DNA from: Verrucomicrobiota bacterium | Lineage (GTDB): Bacteria; Verrucomicrobiota; Verrucomicrobiia; Limisphaerales; Fontisphaeraceae | Direction: 5' to 3' | NCBI GenBank assembly: GCA_037139415.1 | Contig: JBAXGN010000022.1 | Location: 1-53,847 of the forward strand | DNA: 53,847 nucleotides | Part shown: one piece after another, positions 39,320 through 53,847 of the stretch | How positions within the stretch are numbered: position 1 is the first letter of the stretch | How the letters are laid out: each line of letters begins with the position of its first letter | Notes under the pieces: generated by a model | The model's input: only the letters and a program-made list of their open reading frames with translations | Told to the model about the DNA's origin: nothing | Databases searched by the model: none | Position numbers and translations under genes: made by a program

Positions 39320-41622
<2,303 letters not shown>

Positions 41623-41637
41623 TCCGCACTGATTTCC

Positions 41638-42057
41638 ATGCCAGACACCTTTAAATTGGAAATTGTGACGCCGGAAGGCGTGATCTGCTCCGAGCAGGTG
41701 GAAATGCTCACCCTGCCTGGCGTCGAGGGCGAGATGGGGATTTACCCCATGCACGTGCCGCTGATGACCCAGATCGAGCCGGGCGAACTGACGTGGATCA
41801 AGAATGGCCAGGAGCATTTGCTCGCCGTGGGCGAAGGCTTTGTGGAAATCACCGGCGAACATGTGGCGATCATGACGGATATGGCGATCGAGGCGGATTC
41901 CATTGATGAAGCCGCCGCCGAGGAAGCCAGGCGACGTGCCGAAGGACGTCTCCAAGAGAAAATCTCCGAGGAAGAACTGGCCGCCGTGCAAGCGTCGCTG
42001 GTGCGCATCACTGCCCAATTGCACGTCAAACGCCACCGTCGTGGTCAGCATCATTAA
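41638..42057 (+). CDS. atpC: ATP synthase F1 subunit epsilon
   Basis: A 139-residue subunit of the central stalk. The N-terminal beta-sandwich has FKLEIVTPEGVICSEQVEML, GVEGEMGIYPMHVPLM and FVEITGEHVAIMTDMA; the C-terminal part (about 90-135) is a charged helical pair (AAEEARRRAEGRLQEKISEE) that can act as an inhibitory arm. It closes the operon; the cold-shock gene that follows has its own promoter. Confidence 0.95.
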   Translation: MPDTFKLEIVTPEGVICSEQVEMLTLPGVEGEMGIYPMHVPLMTQIEPGELTWIKNGQEHLLAVGEGFVEITGEHVAIMTDMAIEADSIDEAAAEEARRRAEGRLQEKISEEELAAVQASLVRITAQLHVKRHRRGQHH

Positions 42058-42074
42058 TTACTTGTAAGAACCGC

Positions 42075-42103
42075 TTGACGGGGTGATACCGTTTCGTTAT
42101 AGT
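42075..42103 (+). promoter_or_regulatory. Sigma-70-type promoter of the cold-shock gene
   Basis: TTGACG (42075-42080), a 17-base spacer and TATAGT (42098-42103) make a near-consensus promoter just after the ATP synthase operon. Transcription would begin near 42110, leaving an untranslated leader of about 110 bases before the ATG, as in the cold-shock genes of E. coli whose leaders respond to temperature. Confidence 0.75.
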
Positions 42104-42220
42104 ATATCAGAGCATTGGATGTAGCAGGTCTGGCATGAACCAGTTTGTCGCCCTTGTGTACGCGGGGTTGTGGTTTGTCACATGCATGAGCCCTGCGTGT
42201 CCGTAGTATCGGAGTACACT

Positions 42221-42472
42221 ATGGCAAGCGGCAAAGTAAAATGGTTTGATAACCGGCGAGGCTACGGTTTTATCGTTAACGAATCGGGCAAAGATGTATT
42301 CGTGCATCACACCTCGATCCAAGGCGAAGGGTTTCATACCCTTCAGGAGGGAGAAGAGGTGCGCTATGAACTCGAAGACTCCGGCAAAGGCCCCAAGGCC
42401 AATCAAGTACAACGGCTTATGGCCAAGCCCGCACCACGCCCGACCGTACAAGCGAATGACCGCCAGTTCTGA
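42221..42472 (+). CDS. Cold-shock domain protein
   Basis: An 83-residue nucleic-acid-binding protein: ASGKVKWFDNRRGYGFI (RNP1-like), then GKDVFVHHTSIQ (RNP2-like) and the closing strand GPKANQVQ, with a short Pro-rich tail. The residues that stack on RNA, W, F and H in these motifs, are present. It acts as a single-stranded RNA/DNA binder or RNA chaperone. The start at 42221 follows a CGGAG site and gives the normal size; the longer frame from 42170 is not supported. Confidence 0.93.
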   Translation: MASGKVKWFDNRRGYGFIVNESGKDVFVHHTSIQGEGFHTLQEGEEVRYELEDSGKGPKANQVQRLMAKPAPRPTVQANDRQF

Positions 42473-42499
42473 TCAAACCCGTCAAAGGATGGCCGCCTC

Positions 42500-43687
42500 G
42501 TGACGGCGGCATCCACCACAGCGCCCGGTTCCTCCCCGCCACCGGTCAGGAGCCTATATGTTCATGTGCCGTTCTGCGCGCACAAATGTGAGTATTGCGC
42601 CTTTTTCTCCGCTCCCCCGCAAGGCGATCAGATCAACGAGTATGTTACCGCCCTCACCCGGGAACTGGAACTGGTGGCCCCGCAATTGCAGCCCGACACC
42701 GTCTATTTTGGCGGCGGCACCCCTTCCCTGCTGAACTTGCGGCAATGGACAACCATTTTTGAAGCCATGCGTCGGCTGGACTTGCACGGAGCCGCCGAGT
42801 GGACGGTGGAATGCAATCCCGCCACGGTTTCCCCGGATAAGGCACGCCTGTTTCGCGATTACGGCGTCAACCGTATTTCCTTGGGCGTACAGTCCCTTGA
42901 CGAACAGCTTTTGGAACGGTTGGGGCGCGTTCACGCCCGCGAGATGGTGTTTCAGTCCTTCGAGGTTTTCCGTAAAGCCGGGTTTGACAATGTGAACGTG
43001 GACCTGATGTTCGCCATTCCCAGTCAGACCATGGAAATCTGGCGACGCACGCTGGATGAAGTGCTCGCGCTGCAAAGTGAACACCTGAGTTGCTACGAAG
43101 TCATCTACGAGGAGGACACCCCACTGTATGCCCAATTGCAGGCCGAGCAATTCAGCATGGATGAGGACCGGGCCTGCGATATGTACGAAGAGTTAATCAC
43201 CCGTTCCGCCGAACATGGGTTTCATCAATATGAAGTGGCCAACTTCGCCCGGCATCTCGGTGGTGGCGGCTTTCGGATTCCCGACCGCGCCTGCCGGCAC
43301 AATGTCAATTACTGGCGGGGAGGGACGTTTTACGGACTGGGGCCATCTGCCAGCAGTTTTGTGGACCAAGTACGCACCCGCAACCATGCCAATACCACCC
43401 TCTACTGTCAGGAACTCGCGGGCGGACGGCGCGCCATCGAATCGCGCGATGAACTGCCGCCACTGGCACGCGCGGGAGAAATTGCGGGTTTTGGACTGCG
43501 TATGACGGCAGGCTGGTATTTCGATGAGTTTCAAGCCGTCACCGGCTTCGATTTACGAGAGCATTGGACCGAAGAAATGAGCCGGCTGGTATCGCTGGAG
43601 TATGCGCGACAGGATGACCTCGGTTTTCGGCTGACCGCGCGCGGTTTGCGCTACGCCGACTGGGTGGTGGAACTGTTTCTGCGCTGA
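42500..43687 (+). CDS. hemW: Radical SAM heme chaperone HemW (HemN-like)
   Basis: A 395-residue radical SAM protein: LYVHVPFCAHKCEYCAFFS holds the cluster cysteines C26, C30, C33, followed by VYFGGGTPSLL, TVECNPATVSPDKARLF, GVNRISLGVQSLDEQLLERL and YEVIYEEDTPLY, all of the HemW/HemN family. The HemN-specific catalytic N-terminal extension is absent, and members like this insert heme into respiratory enzymes. The start is GTG at 42500, with AAAGGA about 11 bases upstream. Its last 51 bases and the stop codon are repeated exactly at 44036-44086. Confidence 0.9.
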   Translation: MTAASTTAPGSSPPPVRSLYVHVPFCAHKCEYCAFFSAPPQGDQINEYVTALTRELELVAPQLQPDTVYFGGGTPSLLNLRQWTTIFEAMRRLDLHGAAEWTVECNPATVSPDKARLFRDYGVNRISLGVQSLDEQLLERLGRVHAREMVFQSFEVFRKAGFDNVNVDLMFAIPSQTMEIWRRTLDEVLALQSEHLSCYEVIYEEDTPLYAQLQAEQFSMDEDRACDMYEELITRSAEHGFHQYEVANFARHLGGGGFRIPDRACRHNVNYWRGGTFYGLGPSASSFVDQVRTRNHANTTLYCQELAGGRRAIESRDELPPLARAGEIAGFGLRMTAGWYFDEFQAVTGFDLREHWTEEMSRLVSLEYARQDDLGFRLTARGLRYADWVVELFLR

Positions 43688-43691
43688 TTGA
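43637..43691 (+). repeat. 55-bp direct repeat, copy 1 (3' end of hemW)
   Basis: The last 51 bases of hemW, including the stop codon, plus four bases after it. It is identical to 44036-44090, and sequence on either side of the two copies differs. It is the original copy, as it encodes the natural HemW C-terminus YADWVVELFLR. Confidence 0.95.
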
Positions 43692-43712
43692 CCGGTAATG
43701 AAAAAAATGTTT

Positions 43713-43763
43713 TCAGATCACAATTTTTATGCTGCCGCGATCCAACTCCACCAAAAACATCAT
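43713..43763 (-). pseudogene. Truncated partner ORF of the DUF433 gene
   Basis: The ATG at 43763 overlaps the DUF433 stop codon (ATGA) and is followed by 16 codons reading MMFLVELDRGSIKIVI before a stop. DUF433 antitoxin-like genes are normally followed, with such overlap, by a DUF5615 PIN-like gene starting M-[KI]-FLVD-type. Only the first five or so residues fit, so this looks like the stump of a lost toxin. Confidence 0.35.
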
Positions 43764-43993
43764 GCCAGAACAAGATGCTGGCTTTTAACCTGAAGCGACC
43801 GCGTTGCGAATTCCAGGCAGGCCAAAAAATCTTCCCGTTCCAAATCCGGAAATTCCTTTAACAAATCGTCAATCGTGTCGCCGGCGGCCATATATTCAAG
43901 CAGGGACTCGACGGGGTACCGCAGATTGCGCACCACCGGCTTCCCATGACAGATTTCCGGGTTGATTGTTATACGCGATAGCAGCGACTTCAT
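43760..43993 (-). CDS. DUF433 antitoxin-like protein
   Basis: A 77-residue protein with the DUF433 pattern: ITINPEICHGKPVVRNLRYP then VESLLEYMAAGDTIDDLLKE and FPDLEREDFLACLEFA, a helix-turn-helix-like fold. DUF433 proteins are the proposed antitoxin half of pairs with DUF5615 PIN-like nucleases. The start at 43993 gives the usual length; a start at 44020 adds nine atypical residues. The gene sits inside a 344-base segment bounded by two perfect 55-bp repeats, and no intact toxin gene follows. Confidence 0.85.
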   Translation of the reverse strand: MKSLLSRITINPEICHGKPVVRNLRYPVESLLEYMAAGDTIDDLLKEFPDLEREDFLACLEFATRSLQVKSQHLVLA

Positions 43994-44035
43994 GACGGAA
44001 GTTAGTCCTATAATCCACATAATGTCAAGCGCGCG

Positions 44036-44090
44036 GCGCGCGGTTTGCGCTACGCCGACTGGGTGGTGGAACTGTTTCTGCGCTGATTGA
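44036..44090 (+). repeat. 55-bp direct repeat, copy 2 (duplicated hemW end)
   Basis: An exact second copy of 43637-43691 with no hemW sequence before it. It ends 9 bases before the flippase stop codon. Without the segment 43692-44090, hemW and the flippase gene would face each other across about 13 bases, like other convergent pairs in this window. Confidence 0.95.
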
Positions 44091-44099
44091 ATCCGCCGT

Positions 44100-45383
44100 T
44101 TAGCGTGCTTGGTCTGCGGCAGAGTTTTGTTTGTTTTTCAATGAAAACCAGAGGCAGATGGCCACCATGCCCAGGCTGAAGAGACCGAGCATTTGCACGA
44201 CTTGCGAGAAACCATGGATCAAGTCGGTTTTATCCGCCGTGGAAGCGCGCCATTGCAGGGCGAGCGCGTAGCCGCCGGCCAGCAGGATCAACCAGGGCAC
44301 CACCTTGAATTGTTTGCGGGCCAGCAGGTTGTTCACCAGCACGTTCGCCACGGTCAACGGCACCACACACCACACAAACCAGGGCACCACCGGCGCCACT
44401 TTAAGAAACGTCTTGTCGTACACCAGACGCAAAGGAAATTCCGGCAGCACGGTGCAAAATAAAGCGGCCCCCATGCCAAGCAAAGCGGTAACCCCCAAGG
44501 CTTGCAACAGCACGGTGGATTTCTCACCAGTCGCCGCCTGGCGCACGATTTTGGGGAACATGACGGCCGCCACCGGCGCAGTGAAAAACACCAACGCGCG
44601 TCCGATCATGCCCGCCGCCGCATAAAAGCCGGTTTCATTGCGGTCGAAGTATTTCTGCACAAAGATCATGTCGGCGCTCATCATGAACAGCGTGGCACCC
44701 GCCCCCAATGTCAGGGGCACCACCCGGCCCAGCCATTCCCGCCAGTTGATGGATTGTGCCGCCCCTATCCAGCATGCGCGGTTCTGCCAGGCGCCAATTC
44801 CCAGGCTGATGATGAGGCCGAACAATACCGCCGTCATGCCACCCGCCGCCCAACCGCCCAGCAAACGCACAATGATCACCACGCCGAGGAATCGCGCAAA
44901 GCCACCCGCGATGGACACCAAGCCATACCAGAAAAACGATTGCTGGCCTTGCAGCAGACCCGACATGATCGGCATCCACATGGCAAACAAACCCACCACG
45001 GCGGTCATCCATAACGCGGCGGGGTTGGCGACTTGCAGCGAATCAATGACATACTGTTGCGCCACCACCAGCACGCCTACCATCACCAGCCAAATCCACA
45101 AGATGCCCTTCATGACGGAACGAACCGTGCCCACCAATTGCTGGTGGGCGGCATCGCCCACGGCAGACGCCGCCTGCTGGGCAAACACACTCTGCAAACC
45201 AATGGCGGGAATACCCATCAGGTTCAACACCTGCAACAGCGCGGTGAAAACGCCGTACTCGGATTTCGGCATGTCCTTGGCCACCATGTGAACGGCGTAC
45301 ATGAACGCGCCACCGAGCGCCGTGGCGACCGCAATCCAGCCGGTCTGGTAAAAAAACTTAAATTTACTTTCGCGTTGTTCCAT
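44100..45383 (-). CDS. Oligosaccharide flippase-like membrane protein
   Basis: A 427-residue protein of the MATE/Wzx-like polysaccharide transporter group with about 12 hydrophobic segments (for instance VVPLTLGAGATLFMMSADMI and WLILLAGGYALALQW). The start VATALGGAFMYAVHMVAKDM then SEYGVFTALLQVLNLMGIPA is typical of the polysaccharide biosynthesis family. It would move lipid-linked sugars across the inner membrane. The start at 45383 is used; the frame to 45428 adds 15 residues without support. Confidence 0.82.
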   Translation of the reverse strand: MEQRESKFKFFYQTGWIAVATALGGAFMYAVHMVAKDMPKSEYGVFTALLQVLNLMGIPAIGLQSVFAQQAASAVGDAAHQQLVGTVRSVMKGILWIWLVMVGVLVVAQQYVIDSLQVANPAALWMTAVVGLFAMWMPIMSGLLQGQQSFFWYGLVSIAGGFARFLGVVIIVRLLGGWAAGGMTAVLFGLIISLGIGAWQNRACWIGAAQSINWREWLGRVVPLTLGAGATLFMMSADMIFVQKYFDRNETGFYAAAGMIGRALVFFTAPVAAVMFPKIVRQAATGEKSTVLLQALGVTALLGMGAALFCTVLPEFPLRLVYDKTFLKVAPVVPWFVWCVVPLTVANVLVNNLLARKQFKVVPWLILLAGGYALALQWRASTADKTDLIHGFSQVVQMLGLFSLGMVAICLWFSLKNKQNSAADQAR

Positions 45384-45511
45384 TACAATTGTGACACGCG
45401 GAAGAGCCGGTCTCGACCGATGGCCCAAGCCTCCCGCACGCGCGGTGAACGTAAACCACCCCGGAATAATTTGCCAGTGGATTTGTTACCGAAAGCACGC
45501 GTTGAAATTGA

Positions 45512-45612
45512 ACACGGATTACACGGATTGCACGGATGAAAGAGCACGGGGAGGACCGTGCTTCACCCAAAGGCTGTTACTGTTCCATCCGTTGTCAATT
45601 CGTGTCATCGTC
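45512..45612. repeat. Inverted short-repeat element overlapping the end of rsmI
   Basis: The left arm is three 9-base steps (ACACGGATT, ACACGGATT, GCACGGATG; 45512-45538). The right arm (about 45586-45612) holds the reverse pattern (ATCCGTTGTCAATTCGTGTC). Between them is a hairpin AGCACGG, six bases, CCGTGCT (45543-45562) that could end rsmI transcription. The rsmI stop codon lies within the right arm. Confidence 0.55.
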
Positions 45613-46353
45613 AGTTTCTGCCTGTTTTTCTGTCGGCTCGGCGTCCGCTTCTTCCCCTGCGCCAATCAGTACCACAAATTCGCCTTTCAGCGGTTTCTGT
45701 TGCGACTGGGCCAGTAATTGCTCCGGGGTGCCGCGTAGGTATTCCTCGAACTTCTTGGTCAGCTCGCGCGCCAGGACGATCTGCCGCTTGGGATAAATGG
45801 ACTGCAACTCGCCCAAAAGCTTTTCAATCCGGAACGGCGACTCGTACAGGATCAAGGTTCCCGGCACGGCACGCAAGGCTTCGAGGGCCTTGCGGCGCTG
45901 ACCGGATTTATGCGGCAGGAAGCCGATAAAGTGAAATTCATCCGCCGGCAAGCCGCTGGCAGTGAGTGCAGCCACCAGCGCGCAGGCACCGGGCACGGAT
46001 TCCACGCGGAACCCGGCCGCGAGCGCGGCGCGCACCACCCGCTCGCCGGGATCGCTGATGCCGGGGGAACCGGCGTCAGTAACCAGTGCCACTTTGGTGC
46101 CCTGGGCCAATCGCGCCAGGATTTCCTCGCTGCGTTTGGCCTCGTTAAAGGCGAAATAACTCAACATGGGTTTGCTGATCTCGAAGTATTGCAGCAGACG
46201 TCCGGTGTGCCGGGTATCCTCGGCGGCGATGACATCGCACTCCTTGAGCACGCGCAACGCGCGCAAAGTGATGTCTTCCAGATTGCCAATGGGCGTGGCA
46301 ACCAGGTACAGCGTGCCCGGCATGAGCGGCGGGCGTGGTGATTCAGGATTCAT
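45595..46353 (-). CDS. rsmI: 16S rRNA 2'-O-ribose C1402 methyltransferase
   Basis: A 252-residue tetrapyrrole-methylase-fold enzyme: GTLYLVATPIGNLEDITLRA, CDVIAAEDTRHTGRLLQYF, KVALVTDAGSPGISDPGERV, VPGACALVAALTASGLP and ILYESPFRIEKLL are the family hallmarks; AdoMet is the donor. The C-terminus is a short acidic tail (about 20 residues) whose last codons come from the inverted repeat element at 45512-45612. The start at 46353 is used, with an alternative at 46323. It lies 22 bases after the ArsR-family gene, probably in one transcript. Confidence 0.93.
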   Translation of the reverse strand: MNPESPRPPLMPGTLYLVATPIGNLEDITLRALRVLKECDVIAAEDTRHTGRLLQYFEISKPMLSYFAFNEAKRSEEILARLAQGTKVALVTDAGSPGISDPGERVVRAALAAGFRVESVPGACALVAALTASGLPADEFHFIGFLPHKSGQRRKALEALRAVPGTLILYESPFRIEKLLGELQSIYPKRQIVLARELTKKFEEYLRGTPEQLLAQSQQKPLKGEFVVLIGAGEEADAEPTEKQAETDDDTN

Positions 46354-46375
46354 AGGCAGGCATCAGACACTCGGA

Positions 46376-46720
46376 TTAAATACCACCAAACGCCTTCGCA
46401 TGTTCTGCCAGGCGTTTTTGCAGGCTGCCACACACGTGTTCGCACAGGGTAAAGATGCCCGGATCAGCGATCCGGTAAAACACCTTCAGCCCCTCCTTGC
46501 GGCGGCTGAGGATGCCAGCATCGGTCAGGGCCTGGAGATGCCGGGAGACATTGGCCTGGTTCAGGTCGGTGGCGGCCATCAACTCGGTGACGTTCTTCTC
46601 ACCGGCTTCGAGGGCGTTAATGAGTTTCAAACGGCTCGGTTCGCTTAGGAGCTTGAAGCGGGCGGCGATGAGTTCAAGCGCCTGATCGGAAAGAACGGGA
46701 TGTGCGGATCGTTTCGACAT
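46376..46720 (-). CDS. ArsR-family winged-helix regulator
   Basis: A 114-residue regulator: FKLLSEPSRLKLINALEAGE, KNVTELMAATDLNQANVSRH, LQALTDAGILSRRKEGLKVF, the standard ArsR arrangement with the recognition helix at NQANVSRHL. The classical metal-binding ELCVCD motif on helix 3 is absent; two cysteines sit near the C-terminus (LCEHVCG), which could sense metal or redox state, unproven. The start codon lies about 6 bases after a TATGGT -10 box, so the mRNA is probably leaderless. It precedes rsmI. Confidence 0.88.
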   Translation of the reverse strand: MSKRSAHPVLSDQALELIAARFKLLSEPSRLKLINALEAGEKNVTELMAATDLNQANVSRHLQALTDAGILSRRKEGLKVFYRIADPGIFTLCEHVCGSLQKRLAEHAKAFGGI

Positions 46721-46726
46721 GCAAAC

Positions 46727-46755
46727 ACCATATTACCATATACCAATACTGTCAA
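46727..46755 (-). promoter_or_regulatory. Consensus promoter for arsR, leaderless
   Basis: On the minus strand TTGACA (46755-46750), a 17-base spacer and TATGGT (46732-46727) are followed by the ATG at 46720. The spacer is made of ACCATATT-like repeats, a likely operator for the ArsR protein itself. The -35 box lies inside the 3' end of the small ORF upstream. Confidence 0.7.
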
Positions 46756-47005
46756 TCAGTTGCCGATATTGGGGAATTTCACCCAGGGCTGCATCCAGCT
46801 CGGTTTGGAATTTTCCGCTCGCACCGCTGATTGAATAACCAGAACCGCTCCCGCGCCCCCGGCGCACCGGAGGTCCGCGCTCCATCTTTGGCTTCCCCAG
46901 GCTCGGTGGCTCGGGCCGCTCTGGTTGACGCGAAATGGCTTTAGCCGGTCGGGATCGGGATTCACACCAGCGGGGTGGCAAGTCGGCGGGAATATCCCTT
47001 GTCAC
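46733..47005 (-). CDS. Possible small Arg/Pro/Gly-rich protein
   Basis: A reading frame of about 90 codons from a GTG at 47005, with a Pro/Arg-rich front (RSRPAKAISRQPERPEPP), a glycine-rich linker (RRGRGSGSGYSISGASG) and a compact helical end, KFQTELDAALGEIPQYRQLI then DSIGIW. The last part looks like a real protein. It lies 12 bases in front of arsR on the same strand. Family unknown; start uncertain. Confidence 0.4.
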   Translation of the reverse strand: MTRDIPADLPPRWCESRSRPAKAISRQPERPEPPSLGKPKMERGPPVRRGRGSGSGYSISGASGKFQTELDAALGEIPQYRQLIDSIGIW

Positions 47006-47018
47006 TATAATATGCGAC

Positions 47019-47047
47019 TTTAACTGTTTTCCGCCCGCCCGTATAGT
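47019..47047 (+). promoter_or_regulatory. Candidate promoter of the GH127 gene, leaderless
   Basis: TTTAAC (47019-47024), a 17-base spacer and TATAGT (47042-47047) lie directly before the ATG at 47054, leaving room for almost no untranslated leader. Confidence 0.45.
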
Positions 47048-47053
47048 GCAGCC

Positions 47054-49429
47054 ATGATGATGCATTTAATGCGGGTACATCGTTTGCCACAATTGGGTTT
47101 GATAGCCGTATTGGCCACCCTCGGCACCGTGACACCATCGGCGTTTGCCGGTGAAGTGGCACCGGTGGTATCCTTCAAGGCGTCGCCGTTTGCCATGCAG
47201 GATGTGCGCCTGCTTGACGGCCCGTTCAAAACCGCCATGGAACGGGACAGCAAATACATGCTGAGTCTTGATCCCGACCGATTTCTACACAATTTTCGCG
47301 TCAATGCCGGGTTGCCATCCACCGCCGAACCGCTGGGCCATTGGGAGAAACCCAAGTCCGAGCTGCGCGGTCATTTGACCGGCCACTACCTGAGCGCCTG
47401 CGCGCTGATGTATGCCAGCACCGGGGATGAACGCTTCAACGACCGGGTGAACCTGCTGGTCCGCGAGCTGGCCAAATGCCAGGCAGCCCTGGGTGACTCC
47501 GGCTATTTAAGCGCTTTTCCGGAAACGTACTTTGATCGGGTGGAGACTACCGGAAAGGTTTGGGCTCCCTACTATACCCTGCACAAAGTCCTGGCTGGCC
47601 TGCTCGATGCCCATACGCTTTGCGGTAACTCACAGGCGCTGGAGGTGGCGGGGAAATTCGGCGGCTGGGTCAAAACGCGCACGGACAAACTCAGCGACGC
47701 TCAAGTCGAGAAAATGCTGGGCGTGGAACACGGCGGCATCAACGAATCCATGGCCAACTTGTACGCCCTGACGGGTGACCTGAGGCATCTCCAGACTGCG
47801 CGCCGACTTTATCATAAAGCCGTGTTGGAGCCATTAGCCGCCCGGGAAGACAAACTGTCCGGCCTGCACGCCAATACCCAGTTCCCCAAAGTCATCGGCC
47901 TGGCACGCCTCTATGAACTCACCGGTGAGGAGCGCTATCATACCAGCGCGGAATTCTTTTGGGATCGCGTGGTGAACCATCACAGCTACGTTATTGGCGG
48001 CAACAGCGACCATGAACACTTTGGCCCACCCGATCAACTCAACACCCGCATCAGCCCATGGACGGCGGAGAGCTGCAACACTTACAACATGCTCAAGCTC
48101 ACCCGCCAGGTATTTTCCTGGGATGCATCAGCCGCCCAAGCGGATTACTACGAGCGCGCCCTGTATAACCACATCCTCGCCAGCCAGGACCCGCGCACCG
48201 GCCTGATGGCCTATCACATCCCGGTTCATGGTGCATGGTTCATGCCGTACAACACCCCCAATGATTCCTGCTGGTGCTGCACCGGCACCGGCTTCGAGAA
48301 CCACGCCAAATACGGGGATAGTATTTACTGGCACGACAACGACGGCCTCTTCGTCAACCTCTTCATTCCCTCCGAACTCAACTGGCGGACCAAGGGTCTG
48401 GTGGTGCGCCAGGAAACCCGTTATCCCGAGGAAGACACCACGCGGCTGGAATTCAAGTGCGCCCAGCCTTGCACCCTGGCGCTGCGCATTCGGTACCCGG
48501 CCTGGGCGCAGCGCGGCATGACCATTACCGTGAACGGCGAGATTGTGCCGCATCAAGCCGCACCCGCCAGTTTTGCCACCCTTCGCCGCACGTGGAAAAG
48601 CGGGGATCGGGTGGAGGTCAAGCTCCCCATGACGCTGCGGCTCGAACCCATGCCGGACAATCCGACCCGCGCCGCCATCTGCTACGGGCCGGTCGTCCTC
48701 GCGGGTGAACTGGGCACCAACGGAATCGTTCCCCCCATGCCCTACGCCAATAGCCAGAGCGATTTCTTCAAAGTCAAACCACCGGCCGCCCCGGTATTGC
48801 TGACCCAGAATCGCCCGGTGACGGATTGGGTGCAACCCGTGCCTGGCAAACCGCTCACCTTTCAGACCAAGGGCGTTGGGCGTCCGTCCGACCTCACTCT
48901 GACCGCCTTTTATGCCATGACGCCGCAACGCTACAGCATCTACTGGGACATGCTTACCGCCGAACAATATCAAGCACGCCTGACCGACGAAGAAAATGAG
49001 GCCCGACGCGCACAGGCTTGGGCGGCGCGCACAGTGGATTCGGTGAAAATTGGCGATGACACCTCGGAGAAGGCACACAACCTCAAGGGCGAAAACACCA
49101 GTTCCGGCCCCTTTTCCAGCCGCACCTACCGCCACGCCCTCAACGGCGGCTGGTTTGCGTATGATCTGAAGGTGACACCCGACCAACCGGCCAAACTGCT
49201 CTGCACCTATTGGGGCAATGATGGCGTCCGCACGTTTGATCTCACCGTGAACGGCACCTTTTTGGCCACCCAGAAACTCAATCGCGAGCATCCGGGAGAA
49301 TTTTTTGACGTCGAATACGATCTGCCGCCAGCGGTCATCGCCGGCCAATCCAAAGTCACGATCAAATTCCGAGGACAACCCGGCCAAACCGCAGGCGGCC
49401 TGTTTGATTTGCGAATCCTCAAGCCGTAA
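47054..49429 (+). CDS. GH127-type beta-L-arabinofuranosidase (DUF1680)
   Basis: A 791-residue exported enzyme that releases beta-L-arabinofuranose units from plant glycans. The leader is LGLIAVLATLGTVTPSAFA. The catalytic region has LRGHLTGHYLSACALMYAST, GYLSAFPETYFDRVE and the metal site of the family: E339 and C341 in TAESCNTYN with C408 and C409 in SCWCCTGTGFENH, which align with Glu338, Cys340, Cys417 and Cys418 of the Bifidobacterium enzyme. Beta domains follow (about 430-620), and a C-terminal sandwich (around 690-790) ends with SKVTIKFRGQPGQTAGGLFD. The start at 47054 is one of three adjacent ATG codons. A predicted promoter lies directly in front. Confidence 0.9.
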   Translation: MMMHLMRVHRLPQLGLIAVLATLGTVTPSAFAGEVAPVVSFKASPFAMQDVRLLDGPFKTAMERDSKYMLSLDPDRFLHNFRVNAGLPSTAEPLGHWEKPKSELRGHLTGHYLSACALMYASTGDERFNDRVNLLVRELAKCQAALGDSGYLSAFPETYFDRVETTGKVWAPYYTLHKVLAGLLDAHTLCGNSQALEVAGKFGGWVKTRTDKLSDAQVEKMLGVEHGGINESMANLYALTGDLRHLQTARRLYHKAVLEPLAAREDKLSGLHANTQFPKVIGLARLYELTGEERYHTSAEFFWDRVVNHHSYVIGGNSDHEHFGPPDQLNTRISPWTAESCNTYNMLKLTRQVFSWDASAAQADYYERALYNHILASQDPRTGLMAYHIPVHGAWFMPYNTPNDSCWCCTGTGFENHAKYGDSIYWHDNDGLFVNLFIPSELNWRTKGLVVRQETRYPEEDTTRLEFKCAQPCTLALRIRYPAWAQRGMTITVNGEIVPHQAAPASFATLRRTWKSGDRVEVKLPMTLRLEPMPDNPTRAAICYGPVVLAGELGTNGIVPPMPYANSQSDFFKVKPPAAPVLLTQNRPVTDWVQPVPGKPLTFQTKGVGRPSDLTLTAFYAMTPQRYSIYWDMLTAEQYQARLTDEENEARRAQAWAARTVDSVKIGDDTSEKAHNLKGENTSSGPFSSRTYRHALNGGWFAYDLKVTPDQPAKLLCTYWGNDGVRTFDLTVNGTFLATQKLNREHPGEFFDVEYDLPPAVIAGQSKVTIKFRGQPGQTAGGLFDLRILKP

Positions 49430-53655: not shown

Positions 53656-53772
53656 ACGCGGAAGCGGTTTCCGGCATCCCCAAAAACAGGCTGCAGGGTC
53701 TGCAATTGCCGCCATACCCCCGTTTTTGAGGTTTTTTGCGGTTTTTTGAGGGTTGGTGACGGTCATTTTCAA

Positions 53773-53847
53773 GAACACTTTCCATAGTTTCCAGAACACT
53801 TTCCATAGTTTCCAGAACACTTTCCATAGTTTCCAGAACACTTTCCA
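53773..53847. repeat. 21-bp minisatellite at the window edge
   Basis: At least three and a half copies of a 21-base unit (starting GAACACTTTCC) run to the last base of the window, so the array continues. All copies inside the window are identical. The unit length again equals seven codons, and at least two minus-strand frames stay open (heptads such as WKVFWKL or ETMESVL). Confidence 0.9.

Follow-up and report, generated by a model that had tools for sequence, protein, structure and literature searches.

The last 55 bp of the hemW region are present twice in the window (the whole 53,847-nucleotide stretch of Verrucomicrobiota DNA that was analyzed), as perfect direct copies on either side of a short toxin-antitoxin (TA) cassette. 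We favor, with a probability of about 0.58, the view that this structure originated when a DUF433-DUF5615 TA operon was inserted with a long duplication of the target, and that the toxin gene was deleted later. Within this bacterial order, the hemW cassette belongs to a wider pattern. The best explanation of these data is that TA cassettes are a new cargo for insertion with long target duplication, a process known for restriction-modification genes.

The target gene hemW is intact (42500-43687, plus strand); it encodes a radical SAM protein matching the TIGR00539 HemW equivalog with 238 bits against a cut-off of 205. The first copy of the repeat (43637-43691, plus strand) consists of the final 51 bp of hemW and 4 bp beyond its stop codon. 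The second copy, an orphan fragment of the hemW 3′ end (44036-44090, plus strand), is identical to it at 55 of 55 positions, with a copy-to-copy spacing of 399. Between the copies lies an insert of 344 bp (43692-44035, no strand assigned) with a G+C content of 48% versus 59% for the window. Because an exact match of 55 bp occurs within 54 kb, chance is excluded as the source of the repeat. The ORF on the right flank (44100-45428, minus strand), called a flippase in the original prediction, has no Pfam or NCBIfam match. The perfect repeat, its division into 51 and 4 bases and the 344-base segment had all been described correctly from the sequence, and the coordinates confirm that deletion of 43692-44090 would leave 13 bp between the stop codons of hemW and the "flippase". 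When the complete 454-bp region was used as a DNA query, a single place in the source genome (G000; 378 contigs, 7.9 Mb) matched. The only indication that the duplication may be recent, as was proposed, is the identity of the two copies.

The unit contains a DUF433 gene and a toxin remnant only, without transposase or recombinase, and no recombinase was found among the ten window genes scanned (39320-49429), in line with the earlier claim that none is present. Three familiar types of insertion were rejected. A transposon with inverted ends does not fit, since none of the nine inverted pairs (at least 12 bp) listed in 42500-45500 joins the ends of the cassette. An integrase-borne genomic island does not fit either: 344 bp is too small for an integrase gene, and DUF433 is the only ORF listed there. 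As for a tRNA target, the window has no tRNA gene, and among 12 cassette loci scanned L209 alone has one, outside its repeat.

The insert had been described as a DUF433 gene. The gene is indeed present (43760-43993, minus strand; PF04255, E 1.5e-23, 82.8 bits; homologues at up to 83% identity), but it does not stand alone, being the antitoxin gene of a TA operon with a deleted toxin. The DUF433 ORF of 86 codons ends at 44020; alignments with many homologues begin around residue 8-12 of this longer ORF, so translation of the antitoxin likely starts at 43993, about nine codons inside it. A TTGACA hexamer, putatively -35-like by the general consensus, is located 7 bp inside the cassette edge (44023-44028, minus strand). 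The antitoxin stop is overlapped by the start of a reading frame of 16 codons and a stop, MMFLVELDRGSIKIVI (43713-43763, minus strand), in the frame of the toxin. When aligned by eye, this very short remnant corresponds to codons 1-5 and the last 11 codons of a 117-codon DUF5615 toxin, about 101 codons being missing in frame; tblastn of the DUF5615 toxin gave no match at the window site. At homologous loci a 117-aa protein (MKFLVDAHLP...SLVELDR...) is encoded directly behind the antitoxin stop, and Pfam identified DUF5615 in both of the two tested. A full-length adjacent gene for a PIN-like toxin is thus absent at the window, where the 16-codon remnant is found instead. Judged from its sequence, the insert is a minimal DUF433-DUF5615 (VapBC-type) TA operon whose toxin was cut in frame from 117 to 16 codons.

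The state of the toxin was compared across the close subfamily, in 23 loci (L131-L153) that had all been retrieved via the antitoxin, a selection biased towards an intact antitoxin gene. The toxin was full length in 14 (counting L145, which has a shift in the first codons), broken in seven and not found in two; L133 lies near a contig start. These figures indicate that loss of the toxin with retention of the antitoxin is not rare in this set.

DUF433 matches at E 1e-6 or better were found in 176 of 320 genomes of the order. From the match list we took the first 60 DUF433 loci that follow the window's locus, each with flanks of up to 10 kb, and recorded direct repeat pairs of at least 60 bits with copies 100 to 1500 bp apart that spanned the gene. 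L175 was dropped as the same locus as L162, which left 59. Spanning repeats were present at 12 of these against 1.11 expected (Poisson 2.6e-9), where the expectation was derived from other positions of any kind, and not from short genes alone, at least 1.5 kb away in the same regions, dispersed repeats being unfiltered. Four of the repeat-bearing loci were known as such before sampling and were in the list regardless. The same rule gave 6/30 for ParE, 3/30 for PIN and 0/30 for the HU control (DUF433 versus HU, Fisher 0.007). Among 80 hemW loci (up to 7 kb) two contained any qualifying pair and in none did it span hemW. The repeat pairs at related DUF433 loci were 42-339 bp long.

The recommended search of the source genome for other DUF433 genes flanked by copies of adjacent gene ends gave none: the 11 other DUF433 loci (2-3 kb each) had neither an exact direct repeat of at least 30 bp nor an imperfect repeat spanning the gene. 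Outside the order, one of four plasmid-borne DUF433-DUF5615 pairs was spanned (four regions taken from 7 and 47 matching records). This pair (L345, 2821-4234) is on plasmid pPg_03 of the cyanobacterium Pseudanabaena galeata; its 108-bp repeat has 90% identity, with the second copy falling within an annotated gene.

Repeat copies from 21 loci (the window and 20 others) were compared with all loci collected, and the idea that every spanning repeat is a target duplication was rejected. The repeat of L162 is dispersed, that of L163 is shared with L195 and that of L199 with L282; such repeats make up four of the 12 spanned DUF433 loci. The PIN cases mostly are, or may be, dispersed repeats as well, and L292, L308, L358, L367 and L374 were discarded as target duplications, their repeats looking common, paralogous or ambiguous. 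After filtering, eight DUF433 loci, or seven events, remained (L160, L161, L194, L209, L210/L219, L211 and L218), L210 and L219 probably representing one event. Eight against the 1.11 expected from the unfiltered background corresponds to 2e-5.

The targets could be named in several cases. The 3′ end of rarA/MgsA is copied at L210 and, by similarity, at L219; that of thyA at L346, where the copy ends at the thyA stop and the repeat also matches L170; and that of argG at L349, the last two holding ParE-type cassettes. The original idea of a short insertion tied to a copied 3′ end of the target gene thus finds counterparts in relatives, at the rarA, thyA and argG ends. At L161 the copied gene encodes DUF4062. 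Two further layouts were seen. In L194 (4794-5976) a DUF433 TA cassette is located at a vapB gene, 190 bp of which are copied, and in L353 (1381-2043) a ParE-type TA pair adjoins ORFs that resemble cas9 and cas4 by eye (Pfam gave no match), with a piece of the cas4-like ORF copied.

The edges of the inserts were measured at loci where the frames could be properly read, with L163, L209 and L218 left out. The distance from the left edge to the antitoxin start is 42-47 bp in the window, L160, L210 and L219, and 146 and 201 in L161 and L195. The right edge lies 21 bp past the stop of the toxin remnant in the window; elsewhere it is 5-39 bp past the toxin stop in L161, L195, L199, L210 and L219, 136 in L160 and 317 in L194. 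These distances mean that several of the inserts, though not all, are near-minimal operons. Similar flanks were also observed at genes of other kinds: PDDEXK_3 (PF13366) genes with flanking direct repeats of 43-203 bp (contig C17 of the source genome, 23350-24124; L173, 8770-9329; L177, 1012-1880) and a PEP mutase gene in L208. The mechanism therefore need not be specific to TA genes.

A search for the unoccupied hemW-flippase junction in relatives, as originally recommended, did not find it: no flippase or DUF433 match was near hemW in 109 loci (29 + 80, with some genomes represented twice), and the 39 genomes searched included no congener of the source genome. For the rarA site, 49 genomes in the genus to which G241 belongs were considered; 46 have the gene, and 30 loci were compared. 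A second rarA end was found only in G241 and G212, both with the cassette; the other 28 had neither cassette nor second copy within 1.5 kb. The sequence to the right of rarA is not conserved among the compared loci, so the comparison links the copy with the cassette but gives no base-exact empty site. G213, in which a single copy (81%) and no match to the TA unit were found, was considered as the empty partner of G219 and rejected as a base-exact pair, its flanks being split over two contigs.

The favored course of events at hemW is as follows. A TA operon with one edge just outside the promoter-like site and the other slightly beyond the stop of the toxin would have been placed behind the stop codon of hemW, the unit itself carrying no recombinase. 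Insertion would have duplicated 55 bp of the target at the ends of the operon, and this would leave hemW intact with a fragment of its 3′ end stranded on the far side. Such an outcome might be reached by capture of a TA fragment between two offset breaks in sister chromosomes, or by replication that switched template into the TA operon and returned slightly upstream. Addiction to the TA operon might then favor cells that kept the insertion. Comparison with homologues suggests that an in-frame deletion, probably between two short stretches of similar sequence (FLV|DAH and SLV|ELD), later removed about 101 toxin codons and would have left a lone antitoxin gene. The exact repeat, the cargo and its boundaries at hemW, the toxin remnant, the enrichment of repeats at TA loci, the gene-specific copies, the 28 rarA loci with neither cassette nor second copy and the spanned plasmid pair all argue for target duplication. 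In L161 and L211, cassettes that share a site have copies with different end points, which is what random duplication predicts. One such locus, L211 (679-3213), has two TA-like gene groups among three copies of one repeat with differing ends and looks like serial insertion at one site. Several observations count against target duplication. The 11 further DUF433 loci in the source genome and three of the four plasmid loci lack a spanning repeat, and no empty hemW junction was found in the relatives compared. Four of the 12 spanned DUF433 loci have dispersed repeats, the hemW repeat is as long as the likely k of the assembler, and a TA insertion in E. coli (ccd, described below) seems to be a replacement. 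The near-constant ends and off-site copies of argG are left unexplained by target duplication.

The argG copies are one reason to consider site-specific insertion in trans, whereby an unlinked recombinase would insert small cassettes with an attachment site resembling the 3′ end of the target gene and thereby restore that end. Three argG ends are present at L349, and a ParE gene and an ORF6N gene lie among them. Further copies turned up in G117 next to argG, separated from it by a different ORF, and both G026 and G117 have more on separate contigs. In total, the unit of about 108 bp is found eight times in these congeneric genomes, in two argG genes and as six fragments, beside different single genes (L349, 1361-3150; L438, 1501-2806; L440, 98-1606; L442, 1500-1608). 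Aligned by eye, all eight start within a few bases of one point and finish on the stop codon or directly beside it. With ends that hardly vary, a cargo that changes and copies away from the site, the argG unit looks like an attachment site, and several clear targets (hemW, rarA, thyA, argG) are likewise 3′ ends at or near the stop. Integron gene cassettes provide a comparison. The arrays of G026 and G117 resemble them in having single-gene cassettes, one of them TA, between units of about 110 bp, and differ in that the argG unit is the 3′ end of a gene and has no consistent attC-like fold. Fold z-scores on the two strands were -0.15 and -0.87 for the hemW unit, 0.33 and -0.37 for the argG original and -2.09 and -0.79 for argG copy 2, which gives no consistent signal. 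Against insertion in trans are also the lack of a recombinase among the window genes scanned, the lack of a common core in the gene ends compared by eye, the variable ends in L161 and L211, and targets that are not 3′ ends. We consider insertion in trans unlikely for hemW. Slightly more doubtful still is the tentative idea that an undescribed recombination system of Verrucomicrobiota inserts single-gene cassettes, TA pairs included, at housekeeping genes, in their 3′ ends, with a copy of the gene end serving each cassette as attachment unit; the argG arrays would then be its clearest trace and hemW a single-cassette case.

An identical structure would also be produced by Campbell-type homologous recombination, in which a circle carrying the cassette and a 3′ fragment of hemW from another strain is integrated by one crossover within the 55 bp. 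Such integration would account for serial arrays whose ends stay constant, like those of argG. A prior duplication is required to form the circle, and 55 bp is generally regarded as short for recombination, which makes this route quite improbable.

The length of the repeat raised the question of assembly. The window begins and ends with exact 55-bp repeats (1-55 = 262-316 and 53772-53826 = 53793-53847), and contig C17 begins with exactly 55 bp of C2. The starts of C11 and C18 match near other contig ends by 50 and 52 bp; 34 contig ends were compared with roughly 16% of the genome, and the majority had no match there. Since contig ends share exactly 55 bp with other places, the assembly graph was very likely built with k=55, and the hemW repeat would then be a single shared vertex. 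If this vertex was misresolved, the true arrangement could be a mixture of strains, or else an unoccupied junction together with a cassette unit that is circular or tandem. In 1.25 Mb of the source genome, window included, 34 exact repeats were listed that are 40 bp or longer and lie within 5 kb; only the hemW repeat and the two at contig ends are exactly 55 bp long, and the other 31 differ in length. Graph edges of such assemblers are derived from reads, so the hemW copy is likely real and the junction k-mers should occur in the reads. The edges of the cassette fit a TA operon, and relatives have a similar design with diverged copies. We therefore hold an assembly effect to be very improbable, a little more so than a crossover with a circle, and regard the order hemW-cassette-flippase as the choice of the assembler and, like the number of cassette units, as provisional. 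Least probable of all is an unrelated local duplication of the hemW end followed by TA insertion into or between the copies, which is possible in principle and recalls those TA loci that are flanked by dispersed repeats, but is opposed by the enrichment of repeats around TA genes and by the 30 rarA loci, where the second copy occurs only with the cassette.

Long target duplication has been described for restriction-modification genes in the sections of PMC1643837, PMC3874152 and PMC3031569 that deal with it, the first two citing Nobusato et al. 2000 and Furuta et al. 2010. According to these accounts the target copies are of the order of 100 bp and the association with restriction-modification genes is frequent; in PMC2654758 the work is cited in a passage that compares restriction-modification and TA systems. 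As far as these accounts go, the likeness is in a small addictive unit flanked by long and variable direct copies of the target. The differences are that the hemW cargo is a TA unit, that there is no empty-site pair of strains for it, and that one genus has near-constant argG units. A DUF433 (COG2442) antitoxin with a PIN toxin forms an experimentally shown VapBC-type system, vapBC10 of Synechocystis, in the relevant part of PMC3834315; the window resembles it in the order of a DUF433 antitoxin gene followed by a gene for a PIN-like toxin, and differs from the system described there in keeping 16 toxin codons only. Gene transposition in Arabidopsis, as outlined in a portion of PMC2869330, left the moved gene with flanking genic direct repeats, for which insertion of a circle was proposed; genic target copies flank the moved gene in both cases, although that one is eukaryotic. 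The chromosomal ccd of E. coli is also a TA unit in a short intergenic gap, between folA and apaH. For the strains listed with ccd, the K-12 match splits into two pieces without the folA-apaH gap, and judging by this coverage ccd, unlike the hemW cassette, seems to have replaced intergenic sequence and not duplicated it. Among the open-licence papers listed as matches we found no report of long target duplication of TA genes, which is no proof of absence, and none in which DUF433 and DUF5615 are named together.

These data bear on how TA genes move without a mobile element to carry them. Copies of gene ends around TA units suggest a way in which such genes may enter chromosomes without a recombinase of their own. 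The signature is recurrent, spanning repeats being present at roughly a tenth to a fifth of the TA loci in these samples, and can therefore be tested in strain collections. It ties TA genes to a mechanism once proposed for restriction-modification genes, and the hemW cassette also captures a later stage, in which the toxin has been lost and the antitoxin kept.
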